From Bacteroidia bacterium (GTDB lineage: Bacteria; Bacteroidota; Bacteroidia; JADZBD01): a stretch of 44,913 nucleotides of DNA. The stretch covers positions 1 through 44,913 of the forward strand of contig JADZBD010000011.1 in assembly GCA_020852255.1 (NCBI GenBank), read 5' to 3'. Position 1 is the stretch's first letter, and each line of letters opens with the position of its first letter. Both the position numbers and the translations under genes were made by a program. The notes beneath the pieces are model-generated. The model was not told where the DNA came from. It searched no databases and was given only the letters and a program-made list of their open reading frames with translations. This document shows, piece after piece, positions 23,333 to 32,547 of the stretch.

Positions 23333-26300
23333 ATGGTCGAAGTTATAACGGCATTGCGTAAAGGAGCGGTGATTTCGCTCACACTGCTCTATGTCTTTTC
23401 CGGTGTACGTGCACAAAATAAATCCGGAAACTGGAGTGTATCCAAACCATTCCGTCAATCTGCCTTTATTGAGAATAAGGATCAGTTCCGGGGACAGAAC
23501 GGGCTTCCTGAAGTTCCGGTGCAGTTTGGAATTTCTAATGATGGAGTAGACATTTTCCTCAGCAAGAACGGAATTACCTACCGGCATTTTGAAAAAGTTT
23601 CAAAAGATTATTCAGGAACTCCTACCGGAAAGCGGTTGAAGGGACAAACCAAATGGGAAGCCGTTCCGCATTATGTTCATGTTCGTTTCGCCGGAGCTAA
23701 TCCCAATTGCATTGCCACTCCCGAACAAGCCCTTGCATGGTATTACACTTACTCGCATCCTGACGATGACAACAAGGGGCTGAAGTGCAGCGCCTTCAAA
23801 AAAGTGATTTACAAAAATCTTTATCCCGGCATTGACATAGAATACACTGTACACGAACAGGGGGGAATAAAATATTCCTTCATTGTTCATCCCGGCGCAG
23901 ATCCTTCCGTTATCCGCCTGGAATATTCCGGCGAAGTTGATCAATTGGAACTGGAGAATGGAAACCTGCTGATCCGTTCAGCCGGGGTGGGAAACATTAC
24001 GGACCATCAACCGGTTTCCTTCATGCAGTCGGGAAACACTCCCGTGAGTTCCTCTTACGTATTGTCAGGAAATTCCATCACTTTTAAGCTGGGAAAATAC
24101 AACACAGCCGGAACACTGATCATTGACCCCTGGACGTCTCCCACCGCTTTTACCGGTTTTCAGGGCGCTTATGAAGTGGATTATGATCAGAACGGAAATC
24201 AATGGGTTTATGGCGGTGCTTACCCCTGGCAGGTAATCAAATACAACAACGCCGGCGTTCAGCAATGGGTTTTCACCTGCAATGCCTTCAACCCTACCTG
24301 GAGTTATTATTTCGGTGACTTCTGCGTTGATCCTGTAAGCGGAAGTGCCTACATGGTAGAGTCCATCAACACAGGAATCGGAGGAGAAATCATCAAGATC
24401 AACACCAACGGAATACTGGTGATCGTATTCCCCGGGAATGTGATGCTGGAAGAAATGTGGAGAATAGCTTACAATGGCTGTACGGACAAGCTGGTGATCG
24501 CCGGAGGCGGAGTTTCACAAACCAACCAGGCCTGCCTGATCGACACTTCGCTCACCTCCGGATTCGCAGCGTTTAATGTATGCAGTACGAATGAGATTGC
24601 CCATGACATGTGTTACCTGGCACTGGATAATGCCAACCAGGCCTATATGCACACCACCAACTGGGGCAACCCGGCACTGAATAACCGGTTGCTAAAAATG
24701 CCGGCCAATACACTTACTCCCACCACCTGGATGGTTGCAACCAACTACACTTATCAGGAAGGAGGGAACCTGACCTATATCAACGGAGGTGGTTCTCAGT
24801 CGAATGGTCACAACGGAATTGCGGTAAGTCCGAACTTTATTTACACCTGCGACGGCGCCGATCTTAAAAAATGGGATAAAACCACCGGCGCGCTTATCCT
24901 CTCTGTGAATATTGCACCTACTCCCAGAACATGCGGAGGAATGGCCGTTGACAATTGTGATAATATTTTTATCGGCGTTCAGAATAATATCCGTGTGTAC
25001 GATGTGAATCTCACCCTCCAGCAAACCATTCCCGCAACCGCTGTTGTTTACGATGTTCGCCTGAACGGCAGCCTCATCCACGTTTCCGGAAACAACTTCG
25101 CGCAAACAATTACCAATCCCATCACCTGTAACCAAAGTCTGAACCTGACGGTAACATCCACCGGCTCGTCCTGTTCATCCAACTCGGGAACCGCTACTGT
25201 TGTTGTTACCGGTGGATCCGGGCCCTATTCCTACGTGTGGAATCCGGGAGGGCAAACCACGGCAACAGCAACAGGACTTTCTTCCGGAACCTACACAGTT
25301 ACCGTTACGGATGCATCCTGCATTGCACTTGTTCAAACAGCCACTGTAACCGTTACCAACTCCGGTGGTCTTACCGTAACAACGCAGCAAAATAATCTTG
25401 CATGCGCCAGCAGCACCAATGGGAGCGCTACTGTAACCGTTACCGGCGGTCAGTCGCCTTACACCTATGCATGGAATCCCTCCGGGCAAACAACCGCAAC
25501 CGCAACGGGACTTGGTCCGGGAACCTACACCTGTACCATCACGGACGCATCCGGCTGTACCGTAACACAAACATTCACGATTACTGCACCTCCGGCTCTG
25601 GCCAATACCACTGCCACCACACCGGCTAACTGTGGCAGCAATAACGGAAGCGCCTCGGTAACTGCCAGCGGCGGAACGGGACCTTATACTTATGCCTGGT
25701 CTAGTGGCGGAACTGCGGCAACGGAAACCGGACTATCTGCCGGAACATACACCGTAACCGTAACCGATGCCAACGGATGTACCATGACAGCAACTGTTAC
25801 GGTAACGAGTTTGGGCGGTGGTCCAACGGTAGCGATAGCCTCTCAAACCAATCCTTCCTGTTCTAATTCCTCAAACGGAACAGCAACAGTGAACGTTACA
25901 ACGGGGAACGCTCCCTATACCTATGCTTGGTCTCCCGGCGGAGGAACAGCTGCCACCGGAACAGGGCTCGCTGCAGGAACCTATACTGTTACAGTTACGG
26001 ATGCCAACGGATGTATAGCCACTATTACTGTAACTGTTACCGCACCTCCACCTGTAACTGCTACCACATCAAATGTACCTGCCAATTGCAATTCAAGTGA
26101 CGGAAGCGCCAGTGTAACCGCAGGCGGTGGAACAGGGCCTTACACCTACTCCTGGTCAAGTGGCGGAACCGGCAGCACCGAAACCGGACTTGCTTCCGGA
26201 ACATACACCGTAACTATTACTGATGCGAATGGCTGTACACTGACCGCCACCGCCAACGTACCCGTTCTAAATGGTCCTACTGCCATTGCCAGCGGGAACA

Positions 26301-26797
26301 CCATCATCATGGCCGGAAATTCAACCAATCTGACTGCCACCGGCGGCGGAAATTACCAGTGGAGTCCGGCCTCAGGGTTATCCTGCACCACCTGCCCCAA
26401 TCCGGTAGCAACACCCAGCGTGACTACTCAGTACTGCGTAATCGTAACGGATGCCTCAGGTTGTTCGGATTCTGCCTGTGTATATGTTGTGGTCGAATAT
26501 CCTTGTCCTACCGCAGCAGACTTCACCGTCCCCAATGCCTTTTCTCCGAACAAAGACGGCAAGAACGACATCTTTATACTACAGGGTCTCGGACTTTGCC
26601 TTGTAGAATTCAAAATGGTGATCTATGACCGCTGGGGTGAGAAAGTGTGGGAAACGGAGAATGTGAATACCGGGTGGGACGGAACCTTTAAAGGAAAGCC
26701 ACTGGATCCTCAGGTTTTTGTGTACTACATCAGTGCTAAGTTTTTAAATAATAATGAAGAGTTCATTAAAAAAGGTAATGTAACCTTGATGCGCTAA
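23333..26797 (+). CDS. Giant adhesin 1: DUF7948-like head, propeller-like region, five SprB repeats, gliding-associated C-terminal sorting domain
   Basis: 1154 residues, secreted by type IX secretion. Signal peptide to about residue 28 (ending VFSGVRAQ). The head (about 40-270) has the 'FIENKDQ ... Y/V-x-x-x-N-G-x-D-I-F-L' pattern of the DUF7948 class, with GIDIEYTVHEQGGIKYSF. Residues 270-600 form a propeller-like middle with many G-G-x-Y strands. Five SprB-type repeats of about 75 residues span 603-981, each closing with GTYTVTVTDANGC or similar. A PKD/Ig-like linker (982-1060) precedes the sorting domain PNAFSPNKDGKNDIF and YDRWGEKVWE (1062-1154). First gene of the cassette, 19 nt before adhesin 2. 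Surface attachment or motility is inferred from SprB. Confidence 0.85.
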   Translation: MVEVITALRKGAVISLTLLYVFSGVRAQNKSGNWSVSKPFRQSAFIENKDQFRGQNGLPEVPVQFGISNDGVDIFLSKNGITYRHFEKVSKDYSGTPTGKRLKGQTKWEAVPHYVHVRFAGANPNCIATPEQALAWYYTYSHPDDDNKGLKCSAFKKVIYKNLYPGIDIEYTVHEQGGIKYSFIVHPGADPSVIRLEYSGEVDQLELENGNLLIRSAGVGNITDHQPVSFMQSGNTPVSSSYVLSGNSITFKLGKYNTAGTLIIDPWTSPTAFTGFQGAYEVDYDQNGNQWVYGGAYPWQVIKYNNAGVQQWVFTCNAFNPTWSYYFGDFCVDPVSGSAYMVESINTGIGGEIIKINTNGILVIVFPGNVMLEEMWRIAYNGCTDKLVIAGGGVSQTNQACLIDTSLTSGFAAFNVCSTNEIAHDMCYLALDNANQAYMHTTNWGNPALNNRLLKMPANTLTPTTWMVATNYTYQEGGNLTYINGGGSQSNGHNGIAVSPNFIYTCDGADLKKWDKTTGALILSVNIAPTPRTCGGMAVDNCDNIFIGVQNNIRVYDVNLTLQQTIPATAVVYDVRLNGSLIHVSGNNFAQTITNPITCNQSLNLTVTSTGSSCSSNSGTATVVVTGGSGPYSYVWNPGGQTTATATGLSSGTYTVTVTDASCIALVQTATVTVTNSGGLTVTTQQNNLACASSTNGSATVTVTGGQSPYTYAWNPSGQTTATATGLGPGTYTCTITDASGCTVTQTFTITAPPALANTTATTPANCGSNNGSASVTASGGTGPYTYAWSSGGTAATETGLSAGTYTVTVTDANGCTMTATVTVTSLGGGPTVAIASQTNPSCSNSSNGTATVNVTTGNAPYTYAWSPGGGTAATGTGLAAGTYTVTVTDANGCIATITVTVTAPPPVTATTSNVPANCNSSDGSASVTAGGGTGPYTYSWSSGGTGSTETGLASGTYTVTITDANGCTLTATANVPVLNGPTAIASGNTIIMAGNSTNLTATGGGNYQWSPASGLSCTTCPNPVATPSVTTQYCVIVTDASGCSDSACVYVVVEYPCPTAADFTVPNAFSPNKDGKNDIFILQGLGLCLVEFKMVIYDRWGEKVWETENVNTGWDGTFKGKPLDPQVFVYYISAKFLNNNEEFIKKGNVTLMR
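25141..26277 (+). repeat. Five SprB-type protein repeats in adhesin 1
   Basis: Five units of about 75 codons. Each has a Cys near its start (SSC, LAC, ANC, PSC, ANC), a G-P-Y-x-Y-x-W core and an end of the form T-D-A-x-G-C (repeat 1: TDASC). None has the extra CxxxC/GLC pair found in adhesins 2 and 3. Confidence 0.85.
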
Positions 26798-26816: not shown

Positions 26817-29039
26817 ATGAAAAAGATCGTTCTATTCGCTGCAGTTCTTTTATTCTCGGCAGCTCACGCACAACAGACTTGCTATCAGAACCCGTCTGTT
26901 GAGGGTCCGTCTGCACCACACGTGGTACCGGCTCCATGGCAGGCTTGTTACGGATCACCTGATACTCAACCCGGACAATGGGGCATTACCCTTCCTCCGT
27001 CGAACGGAACCGGTTATGTGAGTTTCCTTCATTCCGGAAATTCTGTGAACGGCTACAGCGAGGGAATGACCCAGTTGCTCGTTCCGGCTATGGTGGCCAA
27101 TACTACCTATTCATTTACGGTAGACCTGGCCTATTCCCCGATTTATAATACTGCCAGTCCTGGCAATTGCTACAGTTCACTGCAGATCTGGGGTGGTAAT
27201 TCCGCCTGTGCGCAAACAGAACTTCTATGGCAATCAGGTCCGTTCACACATCCCAACTGGCAAACATATAACGTAACATTTACCCCCACCGGTAACTGGA
27301 CGTACATTGCCTTTGAACCATATTATATCACACCCTGCACCGGTTATATCAATTGCCTTCTGGATAATATTTCCTGTATTGCACCGGTGAACGGTAACGT
27401 TACGGGCACAGCCGCTCTGTGTGCAAACACCTGTGACGGAACCGTTACGGCGAATCCCTCTTCCGGTACACCTCCCTACACCTACCTTTGGACTCCAGGA
27501 AACTACACAACTCAAACAGTAACCGGTCTTTGTGCCGGTACCTACTCCTGCGTAATTACGGACGCAAATTCTCAGACCGTTACCGGCTCCTTTACGGTAA
27601 CTGCTCCTCCCCCTGTTGCGCTCACTGCCACTTCCACAAACATTCTTTGTTTCGGACAGTGTACTGGAACTGCCAGCGCCAATGGATCCGGTGGTACCGG
27701 AACACTTGGCTACAGTTGGAGCAACAGTTCTACAACGCAAAGTCTGACAGGATTATGTCAGGGAACCTACACCGTGACGATGACAGATGCCAATGGGTGT
27801 TCGATAACCAGTTCAGTCACCATAACGGAACCACCACTACTCACTTCATCAGCAACGTTTACAGATGTCACGTGCTTTGGAGCGGCTAACGGAACGGCGA
27901 GTGTAACGGCCAGCGGCGGTACTTCGGGATATACCTATTCGTGGAGTCCTTCAGGAGGCAATCAATCCACCGCCAGTAACCTGGGACCAAACACCTACAC
28001 GGTTACGGTAACAGACGCCAACGGCTGCACAAGTACCAGCACTGTCACAATTATTCAACCGACTCAATTGATTACTACCAGCAACGGGTCATCTGTTCCC
28101 TGTGCAGGTTCATGTACCGGAATTGGCACCACCTCTGCATCCGGCGGAACGGGAAACCTCACCTACTCCTGGTCGCCGGGAAATATGACCACCACAAACC
28201 CGACCGGTTTATGCGCCGGCACCTATACGGTAACTGTAACCGATGCCAACGGATGTACTTCCACGGATACCATTCAGGTAGTACAGCCGCCGGCAATTTT
28301 GCTTTCTACTACCGTGCAGGATGCTTCCTGTAACGAATCAAATGGAAATGCAACCGTTACTGCCACCAACGGAAATGCACCGTACTCCTATTCCTGGTCT
28401 CCCAGCGGTGGAACAGCTGCCACAGGAACAGGACTGGGAGCAGGAACCTACACAGTTACCGTTACCGATGCCACCGGCTGCACCTCAACCGCAACAGCCA
28501 CGGTCATTGACAACAGTCCGACCGCTACCATCAGTCCAACTATAGTAATCATGGCCGGTAATAATACTGCACTTACTTCTACTGGTGGAGGTGTCTATTC
28601 CTGGTCTCCAACGAATAATCTTTCATGTACGGATTGCCCCAATCCCACAGCAAATCCTACTGTTACTACCCAGTATTGCGTAACCATAACAGACCAGAAC
28701 GGGTGTACCGATTCGCAGTGTACCTATGTAATTGTGGAATATCCCTGCCCCATTGACGAAAATTTTGGGGCACCCAATGCCTTCTCTCCAAACAAGGACG
28801 GGAAGAATGACATTTTCCTTGTTCAGGGTATGGGACTGTGTTTCAAGGACTTTGTACTTACAGTCTACGACCGCTGGGGTGAAAAAGTGTTTGAAACCAC
28901 CAATCCGAATACCGGTTGGGACGGAACTTATAAAGGGAAGCCACTAGATCCCGGAGTTTACGTCTATTATATAAGCACCACTTTAGTTGGTACGAGTACA
29001 GCTATTGAAAAGCGGGGCAATGTAACTTTGATGCGGTAA
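26817..29039 (+). CDS. Adhesin 2: galactose-binding-like head, five SprB repeats, gliding-associated C-terminal sorting domain
   Basis: 740 residues with a short signal peptide (MKKIVLFAAVLLFSAAHAQ). The head (20-185) is a jelly-roll-like domain of the type 'C-x-N-P-S-V-E-G-P ... P-x-x-W-x-x-C' with GYVSFLHS, TYSFTVDLAYS and CLLDNISC strands, resembling carbohydrate-binding heads on other Bacteroidota adhesins. Five SprB-type repeats occupy 190-567, a PKD/Ig-like linker 568-642, and the sorting domain PNAFSPNKDGKNDIF to the end 643-740. 81 of 98 residues of the sorting segment match adhesin 3 by hand alignment. Gaps of 19 and 4 nt to its neighbours show an operon. Glycan binding is a guess from fold. 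Confidence 0.85.
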   Translation: MKKIVLFAAVLLFSAAHAQQTCYQNPSVEGPSAPHVVPAPWQACYGSPDTQPGQWGITLPPSNGTGYVSFLHSGNSVNGYSEGMTQLLVPAMVANTTYSFTVDLAYSPIYNTASPGNCYSSLQIWGGNSACAQTELLWQSGPFTHPNWQTYNVTFTPTGNWTYIAFEPYYITPCTGYINCLLDNISCIAPVNGNVTGTAALCANTCDGTVTANPSSGTPPYTYLWTPGNYTTQTVTGLCAGTYSCVITDANSQTVTGSFTVTAPPPVALTATSTNILCFGQCTGTASANGSGGTGTLGYSWSNSSTTQSLTGLCQGTYTVTMTDANGCSITSSVTITEPPLLTSSATFTDVTCFGAANGTASVTASGGTSGYTYSWSPSGGNQSTASNLGPNTYTVTVTDANGCTSTSTVTIIQPTQLITTSNGSSVPCAGSCTGIGTTSASGGTGNLTYSWSPGNMTTTNPTGLCAGTYTVTVTDANGCTSTDTIQVVQPPAILLSTTVQDASCNESNGNATVTATNGNAPYSYSWSPSGGTAATGTGLGAGTYTVTVTDATGCTSTATATVIDNSPTATISPTIVIMAGNNTALTSTGGGVYSWSPTNNLSCTDCPNPTANPTVTTQYCVTITDQNGCTDSQCTYVIVEYPCPIDENFGAPNAFSPNKDGKNDIFLVQGMGLCFKDFVLTVYDRWGEKVFETTNPNTGWDGTYKGKPLDPGVYVYYISTTLVGTSTAIEKRGNVTLMR
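27388..28518 (+). repeat. Five SprB-type protein repeats in adhesin 2
   Basis: Repeats 1, 2 and 4 carry a second Cys four residues after the first (LCANTC, LCFGQC, PCAGSC) and also GLC before GTY. Repeats 3 and 5 carry neither. Repeat 1 lacks the usual terminal NGC and has a Cys at GTYSC instead. Confidence 0.85.
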
Positions 29040-29043
29040 TCCT

Positions 29044-31434
29044 ATGTTTAGAACGTTCTTAGCCTTTTCCGCAGTTTTAGGTCTGTTTCCTCTGAATTCG
29101 TGGGCGCAGAGTACCTGCAATTATATCAACGGAAAACCCGGCACCTGCCAGTCACCCGCCCCGAAAATTGTAAATCCCACTCCAACGAACGGGAACGGAG
29201 TGCTTGGCGCGACATACGATTTCCAAAAATGCGGATTGAATTTCGTGCAGTCCAGTGTAAAGCTGGGACAGCGGTACACGATTTCCTGTTGTCCGAATAC
29301 AGTTGGTGCTGCCCAGCCCGCCACCTTCGCCATTGCCGGTATACCCGGAACGGCTGTAATTGAGCGCGCATACCTATGGGCCGGTACTTCCGGAAACGGA
29401 ATTGCTATAACAGCCAGCATTACAAACCCACTCGCGGCGAACCAGAATTTTCCTATGACCATTGTAGGACAGGATCAGGATAAGTGCTGGGGATTTACAG
29501 GAACGTACACCTATCGTGCGGACGTTACCAGCATCATTGCCGGAAACGGGAATTACATTATCAGTGGTCTTCCAACCAGTACCACACAAAGCGGAAATGA
29601 TACCGACGGAGCCACGCTGATGATCATTTATTCCGATGCGTCTCAAACCTGGCAGGGGGAAATACACATCTGGGACGGATGCCTTGTGGGCATCGGAACC
29701 TTTGAAACAACCAATATCACGGGGTTCAATGCCTGTGCCAATTCACAAAACGGAGTCGGGTTCATCTGCTCGGCGGATCATCAGCAGATCAATTCAGGAT
29801 TTGTGATCAACGGAGGCGCCCCATTCACCATTGGCATGACAGAAGACTGGTACAACTATATTTCCGCGCCCACCAATGTCACCGCCGGACAAACTACTTC
29901 GAATTTTCAGATACAGGCCAGCGGAGACTGTTTCAACTGGATGGTGGCCGGATTGTATTTTCAAACGGTTGGATGTACCACCTGTTGTACGCCCACCGGT
30001 ACCCTCACGGTGTCCCCTACTGTAACTACCTCCAATTGTAATCCTTGTACAGGCACAGCAACCGCCAATCCCAGCGGAGGACAGGCGCCTTACAGCTATA
30101 CCTGGAATACGATACCTGCACAAACCACACAAACTGCCACAGGACTTTGTCCGGGTTCATACGTTGTGAATGTTGTGGACGGATCCTGCAATACCGGAAC
30201 GGACACCGTCATTATTCTGCCATCGGCTCCTGTGACCGCCACTACCAGTTTCACCGATGTACTTTGTTTCGGCGGCACTACCGGAACGGCAACAGCGAAT
30301 CCGGGCGGAGGAACTGCCCCGTTTACCTATTCCTGGAGTCCTTCCGCGCAAACAGGACAAACAGCATCCGCGCTTGCAGCAGGAGTATACACTGTAACGA
30401 TTACGGATGCGGCCGGGTGTACAGTCACCGCCACGGTAACAGTGAATCAGCCCACGCAATTACTCAATGCCGCCAACTCACTTACCGGAGTTACCTGCGG
30501 CGGTTATACAGACGGAACGGCCACAACTGGCGGAAGCGGCGGTACGAGTCCGTACACCTATTCCTGGAATCCGGGAGGACAAACCGCGCAAAATGCCACA
30601 GGAATGGCGGCAGGCACCTATACCGTAACCGTGACGGATGCCAACGGGTGCACGGCAACCGATACAGTAATTATTGCTTCGCCTCCGCTGATGCTTCTCA
30701 CTACCGGCACAACCGACGCTTCCTGCAATGAAGCCAACGGAGAAGCCACTATTGCCGCAAGCAATGGCCCCGGACCATTTACCTTCCTGTGGAGCCCGAG
30801 TTCCCAAACTGATTCTCTTGCCACCGGACTGGCGGCCGGAGTTTATACTGTGCTGGTAACGGATGCCAACGGCTGTACGCTTACCACCACTGTTACCGTA
30901 GTAGATAACAGTCCTGTTGCTACCATCAGCCCAACGGTAATAATTATGGCCGGCAATAACACCACCATTATTTCCACCGGAGGCGGCACCTACACCTGGT
31001 CGCCCACCAATAATCTTTCCTGTTCTGATTGTCCGAGCCCCGTGGCAAATCCAACTGTAACCACGCAGTATTGCGTAACGGTAACCGACCAGAACGGATG
31101 CACCGATTCGCAGTGTACGTATGTTATTGTTGAATATCCTTGTCCGGTTGATGAAGATTTCGGTGCACCGAACGCGTTTTCTCCGAACAAAGACGGCAAA
31201 AATGATATTTTCATTGTACAGGGGATGGGACTTTGTTTCAAGGATTTCATTCTTGTTGTGTATGATCGTTGGGGAGAAAAAGTGTTCGAAACCAATAATC
31301 CGAATACTGGATGGGACGGAACATACCGCGGAAAAGTTTTGGATCCGCAGGTGTTCAGCTATTATATATCCACTACCCTTGTGGGCAGTGATAAGCCCAT
31401 TGTGAAACGAGGAAACGTAACATTGATACGGTAA
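29044..31434 (+). CDS. Adhesin 3: DUF3344-like head, four SprB repeats, gliding-associated C-terminal sorting domain
   Basis: 796 residues. Signal peptide MFRTFLAFSAVLGLFPLNSWA. The head (25-312) contains 'IERAYLWAGTSGNG', 'YTYRADVTSIIAGNGNY', 'DGATLMIIYSDASQTW' and 'GMTEDWYNYIS'. This order of a lone A-Y-L-W strand, a D-V-T element and a D-G-x-T-L-x-I-I-Y-S strand resembles DUF3344-type heads. Four SprB-type repeats cover 316-624, a PKD/Ig-like linker 625-698 and the sorting domain 699-796. It begins 4 nt after adhesin 2 ends and 18 nt before the PorP/SprF gene. Cysteine-rich in the head (SCCPN, CTTCC), suggesting disulfides outside the cell. Confidence 0.85.
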   Translation: MFRTFLAFSAVLGLFPLNSWAQSTCNYINGKPGTCQSPAPKIVNPTPTNGNGVLGATYDFQKCGLNFVQSSVKLGQRYTISCCPNTVGAAQPATFAIAGIPGTAVIERAYLWAGTSGNGIAITASITNPLAANQNFPMTIVGQDQDKCWGFTGTYTYRADVTSIIAGNGNYIISGLPTSTTQSGNDTDGATLMIIYSDASQTWQGEIHIWDGCLVGIGTFETTNITGFNACANSQNGVGFICSADHQQINSGFVINGGAPFTIGMTEDWYNYISAPTNVTAGQTTSNFQIQASGDCFNWMVAGLYFQTVGCTTCCTPTGTLTVSPTVTTSNCNPCTGTATANPSGGQAPYSYTWNTIPAQTTQTATGLCPGSYVVNVVDGSCNTGTDTVIILPSAPVTATTSFTDVLCFGGTTGTATANPGGGTAPFTYSWSPSAQTGQTASALAAGVYTVTITDAAGCTVTATVTVNQPTQLLNAANSLTGVTCGGYTDGTATTGGSGGTSPYTYSWNPGGQTAQNATGMAAGTYTVTVTDANGCTATDTVIIASPPLMLLTTGTTDASCNEANGEATIAASNGPGPFTFLWSPSSQTDSLATGLAAGVYTVLVTDANGCTLTTTVTVVDNSPVATISPTVIIMAGNNTTIISTGGGTYTWSPTNNLSCSDCPSPVANPTVTTQYCVTVTDQNGCTDSQCTYVIVEYPCPVDEDFGAPNAFSPNKDGKNDIFIVQGMGLCFKDFILVVYDRWGEKVFETNNPNTGWDGTYRGKVLDPQVFSYYISTTLVGSDKPIVKRGNVTLIR
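29992..30915 (+). repeat. Four SprB-type protein repeats in adhesin 3
   Basis: Repeat 1 has the extra pair (NCNPC and GLCPGSY); repeats 2-4 (LCFGG, TCGGY, SCNEA) lack both extra cysteines. All end in a Cys of the form D-A/G-x-(G)-C. Confidence 0.85.
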
Positions 31435-31452
31435 TTATTAAACTTACGAGTG

Positions 31453-32547
31453 ATGAAAGCCAAGAAGATGATTCCTGTACTAACAACCGCCATGGTATCG
31501 GCAGCCTGCTTGCTTTTTACGGGCGTGAACGCACAGGATATCCATTTTTCCCATTATAACGAAGCGCCGCTGACGCTGAATCCGGCGCTTTGCGGTGTTT
31601 CTTATAACTACCGGGCCGCTGTGCTGTACAGAGATCAGTGGAGAAGCGTAACGGTGCCGTATGTAACCTACGGAGGCTCGTTTGAAGCAAGAATCAAACT
31701 CAATGCCTGGGAAAAGGTGGGAAATAATCTTACCCAGATTTATAAAAAAGCATTTCGGAAAGTAGCGGCCGGCCTCGCATTTTACAACGACCGCGCAGGT
31801 GACGGTGCGCTAAGTACCATACACGCGAATTTTTCACTCTCTACCCGCGTGCAGATCGACGATTATACTTTTGTAGCAGCCGGCGTTCAGGGAGGGATCA
31901 TTCAGAAAAAAGTAGATTTCTCAAAGTTCATCTGGCCGGATCAGTTTGTAGGCACAGGATATGATACCGGTGTGGATCCCGGGGAAAATTTCAATTCCAG
32001 CAGTTTCATACACGGTGATTTCAGCGGGGGAATTCTCTACGCTTACGATCGTGGTGAAAAGGCCATCCGCGCCAATAACGAATTGCGTTTTGATGCCGGC
32101 ATCTCTGCCTTTCACATTAACCAACCGACGCAACGATGGCTCGGAGGTTCCAGCGAAAAACTGGGTATGCGTTACGTAATTCATACGAAGTGTCTTTTCG
32201 GGATTAAGAACTCTACGATCTCGGTTTATCCCAGTTTTGTATTCATGCTTCAGGGACGTCAGAAAGAGATTCTGTTCGGAAGCCTGCTGCGCTATCACTT
32301 TAAGGACGATTCCAAGTTCACCGGCTACATCAAAGCCACACATGCCGGCTTCGGAGCACATTACCGGAACCGGGATGCTCTGATTCCCAGCGCCTTTATC
32401 GAGTTCGGTACGGTGGCTATCGGAATGAGCTATGATGTGAACTTGTCAAAACTCCACTACGCGAGCCAGTACAAGGGAGGCTTTGAGGTGTTTCTCCGCT
32501 TTAACGGAGCTACCCCCTTCATTTACCAGAATGCGCCCTCCTTCTAA
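31453..32547 (+). CDS. PorP/SprF family type IX secretion system outer-membrane protein
   Basis: 364 residues. The signal peptide ends LLFTGVNAQ, followed by the family opening 'DIHFSHYNEAPLTLNPALCG' and YRDQWRSV. The rest is a barrel rich in GxxG/aromatic strands ending in FLRFNGATPF. In Flavobacterium johnsoniae SprF is needed for secretion of the adhesin SprB and its gene lies directly after sprB; here the homologue follows three cargo genes with the matching class of sorting domain. It probably anchors or shuttles these adhesins. GTG 31450 is an alternative start one codon upstream. Confidence 0.9.
   Translation: MKAKKMIPVLTTAMVSAACLLFTGVNAQDIHFSHYNEAPLTLNPALCGVSYNYRAAVLYRDQWRSVTVPYVTYGGSFEARIKLNAWEKVGNNLTQIYKKAFRKVAAGLAFYNDRAGDGALSTIHANFSLSTRVQIDDYTFVAAGVQGGIIQKKVDFSKFIWPDQFVGTGYDTGVDPGENFNSSSFIHGDFSGGILYAYDRGEKAIRANNELRFDAGISAFHINQPTQRWLGGSSEKLGMRYVIHTKCLFGIKNSTISVYPSFVFMLQGRQKEILFGSLLRYHFKDDSKFTGYIKATHAGFGAHYRNRDALIPSAFIEFGTVAIGMSYDVNLSKLHYASQYKGGFEVFLRFNGATPFIYQNAPSF

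Follow-up and report, generated by a model that had tools for sequence, protein, structure and literature searches.

Proteins of Pfam family PF13573 are secreted by the type IX system and share their repeat and CHU_C signal with the three adhesins studied here (adhesins 1–3). SprB-type repeats occur in surface and gliding adhesins. The PF13573 profile has 37 positions, which in our sequences correspond to about columns 4–40 of a 76-residue repeat, as inferred from the match coordinates. It contains the cysteine of column 12 (C12) but stops before C49 and C63, and the pairings described below are therefore invisible from the profile. In RTX adhesins calcium acts at the linkers, whereas in SprB-type repeats disulfides are predicted. 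The extender domains of the RTX adhesins MpAFP and MhLap are arranged in tandem, are mechanically very stable and have calcium clamps (PMC5380327). Giant Gram-positive adhesins, such as that of Mobiluncus mulieris, have long stalks of tandem Ig-like domains with covalent cross-links, including a cross-strand disulfide within a domain (PMC10619420). There the ester, isopeptide or disulfide bonds lie inside domains and the linker is described as flexible (PMC10619420), whereas in SprB repeats a near-constant bond is predicted to span the linker. Disulfides between strands of an Ig-like adhesin domain have therefore been described before (PMC10619420). The earlier note on this DNA knew of no description for SprB repeats, and our search agreed: in literature from which most subscription journals were excluded, we found no article joining "SprB repeat" with cysteine, and nothing equivalent for inter-domain disulfides in adhesins. 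Within that same literature, neither an inter-repeat bond (here called a staple) nor a group of optional pairs that can stand in for one another appears to have been described.

The analysed window is a stretch of 44,913 nucleotides from a Bacteroidia genome, in which three adjacent adhesin genes and, next downstream, a PorP/SprF-like gene all lie on the + strand. Adhesin 1 (23333..26797, 1154 aa) combines an N-terminal DUF7948 domain with five SprB-type repeats (25145-26278), which are followed by a terminal Ig-like domain and, as type IX secretion signal, CHU_C. Adhesin 2 (26817..29039, 740 aa) and adhesin 3 (29044..31434, 796 aa) have five repeats (27381-28520) and four repeats (29995-30915), respectively, with the same two elements, terminal Ig-like domain and CHU_C, after each array. 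PF13573 matched adhesins 1–3 with 113, 94 and 73 bits (cut-off 28), and the tandem arrangement of the matches identifies all three as SprB repeat proteins. PF13585 (CHU_C) in 3/3 adhesins, together with PF11751 in the following gene, marks them as adhesins with a type B signal of the type IX system. The terminal domains (about 26279-26560, 28521-28750 and 30916-31145, between last repeat and CHU_C) have conserved cysteines of their own: LSCxxC, and a QYC cysteine paired with a later S(A/Q)C (columns 54-68).

The PorP/SprF-like outer-membrane protein (31450..32547; PF11751, E 8e-33) is the likely surface anchor for all three adhesins. SprF proteins with a Cys-X-Cys tail provide the link to the gliding track (PMC12635249), and such a partner distinguishes a SprB gliding-motility adhesin proper. 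The product of the window's neighbouring gene ends in GATPFIYQNAPSF, a tail without cysteine. Lacking the Cys-X-Cys tail, it therefore does not belong to the SprF type that is bonded to the gliding track. GldB and GldJ are present in the window's genome.

We translated and aligned the 14 repeats of the window (five, five and four in adhesins 1–3), numbering positions by the 76 columns of a full-length repeat profile. Four repeats had cysteines at both columns 16 and 49 and ten had neither, a coincidence with a chance probability of 1/1001. The earlier note had described these extra cysteines as all-or-none, and the carriers it named were the only ones: adhesin 2 repeat 1 (27381..27614, C206 at 27432 and C239 at 27531), repeat 2 (27615..27839, C282 at 27660 and C314 at 27756) and repeat 4 (28068..28295, C433 at 28113 and C466 at 28212), and adhesin 3 repeat 1 (29995..30231, C335 at 30046 and C369 at 30148), all on the + strand. 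Adhesin 1 had no optional pair. Two measurements needed correction: the cysteines are 32-34 residues apart, not 40-45, and the first of these repeats begins at 27381 rather than 27388. This repeat, the first of its array, also has two features that the earlier note missed. Its usual last cysteine, C63, is absent (GC to SQ), and another cysteine (C245, 27549) is found at TYSC, column 55.

We then collected repeats with the full-length profile from the window's genome (132 Pfam SprB matches), from a phylum sample chosen by SprB score with cysteines ignored, and from loci retrieved by using adhesin 2 repeat 2 as the query. SprB-type repeats were present in 262/295 sampled genomes of the window's class. 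Cysteine occupied column 12 in 97% of the collected repeats, column 63 in 95%, column 16 in 16.0%, column 49 in 15.7% and column 55 in 6.5%. Among repeats less than 80% identical, 289 had both C16 and C49, 1401 had neither, 10 had only C16 and 7 had only C49. The phylum sample alone gave 11, 376, 2 and 0 in the same order. A hold-out set, drawn from loci added later (an Aureispira among them) and comprising 1,099 new repeats, gave 175, 921, 2 and 1. The pooled collection covered about 200 loci and 3,141 distinct repeats: 517 with both, 2602 with neither, 14 with only C16 and 8 with only C49, so that 99.3% obeyed the both-or-neither rule. The tabulation across Bacteroidota that the earlier note had proposed thus revealed a strong association; many one-cysteine repeats, which it had named as the outcome that would count against a pair, did not appear, single cysteines with no replacement amounting to at most a handful of the 3,141. 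Columns 16 and 49 each showed weak or no association with the common cysteine columns 12, 54, 55, 63 and 68. About 1 repeat in 6 had the optional pair. The figure was about 37% in the window's own genome versus about 3% in the phylum sample, showing that use of the pair is strongly lineage-dependent. The pair was somewhat commoner N-terminally (raw counts: 35/75 first repeats versus 374/984 from the seventh on).

Among the exceptions, all seven C49-only repeats of the set below 80% identity had another cysteine in place of C16, carried by an insert at columns 37-41. Such partner swaps were seen at loci L078, L099 and L239. C16-only repeats were mostly mis-registered or had a shifted second cysteine (VCPxxTTxY); the shifted variant ICxGxC...VCPxxTTxY was found at L010, L012, L025, L026, L027, L147, L231 and L236. 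One repeat, at L145, looked like a genuine C16-only case and breaks parity. Two further, rarer optional pairs followed the same rule and were confirmed in the hold-out: 54-68 ([[1678,0],[4,25]]) and 21-44 ([[1698,0],[0,9]]).

To place these cysteines in the fold, we modelled adhesin 2 repeats 2-4 with AlphaFold2, which returned a chain of all-beta domains with a pLDDT of 97.4 and no dip at the junctions. No solved structure of a SprB repeat was found in the PDB, and the nearest solved structures to the model were GhpA fragments and tandem Ig domains. The best fold match was GhpA, the Aureispira grappling-hook protein (PDB 9flp, 9flx and others; E 2e-8, TM 0.55-0.61, 21-27% identity). Like the adhesins, GhpA consists of tandem Ig-like domains and has a Bacteroidota host, but its sequence similarity to the SprB repeat is weak. 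Direct coupling analysis gave an antiparallel B-E register (sum 65: 18-47, 20-45, 21-44, 16-49), an antiparallel F-G register (sum 122) and a parallel A-G register (difference near 62). Of the optional pairs, 16-49 and 21-44 matched the B-E register and 54-68 that of F-G; each occupies positions that directly face one another across two strands. The 16-49 coupling survived removal of every repeat with these cysteines (z 4.2). Because coevolution sets 16 and 49 in register across adjacent strands, this pair is best interpreted as an optional cross-strand disulfide.

Where does the near-constant pair, C12 and C63, act? Loss of C12 in one repeat was associated with loss of C63 in the next ([[17,20],[5,1773]], p 6e-27), whereas the same-repeat table gave p 0.27. 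The hold-out behaved likewise (across the junction [[10,8],[1,990]], p 2e-18; same repeat p 0.3). In paired alignments C12 and the C63 of the following repeat formed the top inter-repeat coupling (z 11.0, versus 2.9 within a repeat). In 2,000 within-array shuffles the mean number of co-losses across junctions was 8.8 and the maximum 18, versus 27 observed, spread over 17 loci. The ends of the arrays were also informative. C63 was absent from 20/142 first repeats versus 25/1,883 elsewhere, and C12 from 17/139 last repeats versus 43/1,891 elsewhere. First repeats that kept C63 had an upstream cysteine in 115/122 cases, versus 11/20 of those without C63 (p 2e-5). Junctions were mostly 13-14 residues long, with C12(i) and C63(i+1) on either side of this short linker. 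However, about 20/37 repeats without C12 were followed by a repeat that retained C63. Since C12(i) and C63(i+1) are lost together and C12 and C63 of the same repeat are not, the sequences suggest that this pair probably forms a bond between one repeat and the next.

The window can be read in these terms. In adhesin 1 (25172..26464, +) the predicted staples are C614-C742, C691-C816, C767-C894, C843-C968 and C919-C1044; in adhesin 2 (27420..28706, +) C202-C328, C278-C404, C353-C480, C429-C555 and C505-C630; and in adhesin 3 (30037..31101, +) C332-C459, C408-C536, C485-C611 and C561-C686. The last partner in each series (C1044, C630, C686) belongs to the terminal domain, which in adhesins 2 and 3 keeps C63 and lacks C12. 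The array ends fit: adhesin 2 repeat 1, with no repeat before it, has no C63. All repeat cysteines of the window follow the pairing rules except those of column 55 (adhesin 1 C734, adhesin 2 C245) and the first-repeat C63 of adhesins 1 and 3, both of which have cysteines upstream.

Because the repeats of one array share ancestry, there were fewer independent events than the counts indicate, and the 16-49 association might reflect inheritance only: one two-cysteine cassette, spread by duplication and recombination, with no functional coupling. Pair-bearing repeats do cluster inside arrays (344 adjacent pairs) and have some other residues in common. Yet the association persisted below 55% identity ([[672,6],[7,117]]), and both sites switched in 79 of the 80 closest mismatched repeat pairs, chosen to be disjoint. 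In a tree built without columns 16 and 49, all 12 supported independent contrasts were concordant (12/12, p 0.0005; only 12 contrasts fell on supported branches). Inheritance alone also predicts many unreplaced singles, against the handful at most in 3,141 repeats, and leaves aside both the compensating cysteines in inserts where C16 is absent and the recurrence of one rule in three separate pairs. We therefore regard it as close to refuted. The earlier note implied two ordinary disulfides per repeat, C12-C63 always and C16-C49 sometimes, and the presence of each constitutive cysteine in about 95-97% of repeats would suit such a bond. Against it, losses of C12 and C63 were associated across the junction and not within the repeat, and same-repeat co-loss was rarer than in shuffled arrays (5 versus 11.8). 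In addition, with A and G running parallel, C12 lies next to the final part of strand G and C63 where that strand begins, at opposite poles, a distance that makes a same-repeat bond unlikely. Co-loss, coupling and strand register together led us to reject C12-C63 as a constitutive bond within a single repeat, and the scheme of two ordinary disulfides per repeat now seems improbable.

The four cysteines might instead bind a metal or ligand at a site to which C12 and C63 contribute and which the optional pair would complete. The usual spacing of four residues between C12 and C16 (CxxxC) would suit this, and a shared site would also produce all-or-none gain. But C63 lies at the other pole or in the next repeat, C12, C16 and C49 are retained without C63 in 9 repeats, and where C49 stands alone a cysteine of a distant insert makes up for the missing partner. 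Moreover, two of the optional pairs, 54-68 and 21-44, consist simply of two cysteines in strand register, and the setting is extracellular. A metal or ligand site is thus very hard to credit. The optional intra-repeat disulfide itself, as the earlier note proposed it, is strongly supported by the B-E register and by covariation that withstood de-duplication, the hold-out and tree contrasts: across relatives both cysteines are gained and lost together. Its framing as a "second" bond was incomplete. The constitutive pair appears to act between repeats, which would leave the optional pair as the sole common disulfide within a repeat.

Taken together, these results make a two-layer scheme highly probable on sequence evidence: an inter-repeat staple, C12(i)-C63(i+1), and an optional C16-C49 bond. 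SprB-type repeats are Ig-like domains of about 76 residues that follow one another head to tail along the stalks of adhesins secreted by the type IX system. In the first, near-constitutive layer, C12 at the end of strand A (bottom of repeat i) would bond the F-G turn cysteine C63 (top of repeat i+1), and each junction would then be crossed by both a peptide linker and a disulfide. In the second, with both cysteines present or neither, the B-E ladder would end with C16 (A-B loop) facing C49 (E-F turn). C16 lies four, sometimes three, residues from C12, and the optional bond would thus tie the staple-bearing loop to the body of the repeat. There it may strengthen the force path through the junction, securing the staple's anchor under load. 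The bonds would form in the oxidising cell envelope, and their role may be mechanical: rigidity and resistance to unfolding and proteolysis. The location of the optional pairs suggests stiffening of chosen stalk segments. It is likely that stalks across Bacteroidia are double-linked covalent chains, with a disulfide at every junction and interchangeable optional pairs (16-49, 54-68, 21-44, loop-49) tuning single repeats, yielding long load-bearing rods free of calcium and isopeptide bonds. If so, the stapled stalk would behave as a stiff, force-bearing, protease-resistant rod and would depend on disulfide formation in the envelope, and the optional pairs would be a simple sequence code marking reinforced repeats.

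A few observations concern other cysteines and other proteins. The cysteine of column 55 (about 6% of repeats; 25532-25534 and 27549-27551 in the window) occupies a core position in strand F. We sought a covarying partner column for it and found none, so that it too breaks the cysteine parity; it is probably a buried Val-to-Cys replacement. Loci L120, L121, L094 and L104 have an extra pair at columns 26-31 on top of the optional pair. L196 encodes a giant Aureispira protein, a 5,984-residue open frame with >60 SprB-type repeats. We rejected its identification as GhpA: a fragment of the frame matches no GhpA entry. Its repeats have C12 and C63 nearly throughout, with 16-49 and 54-68 pairs mixed.
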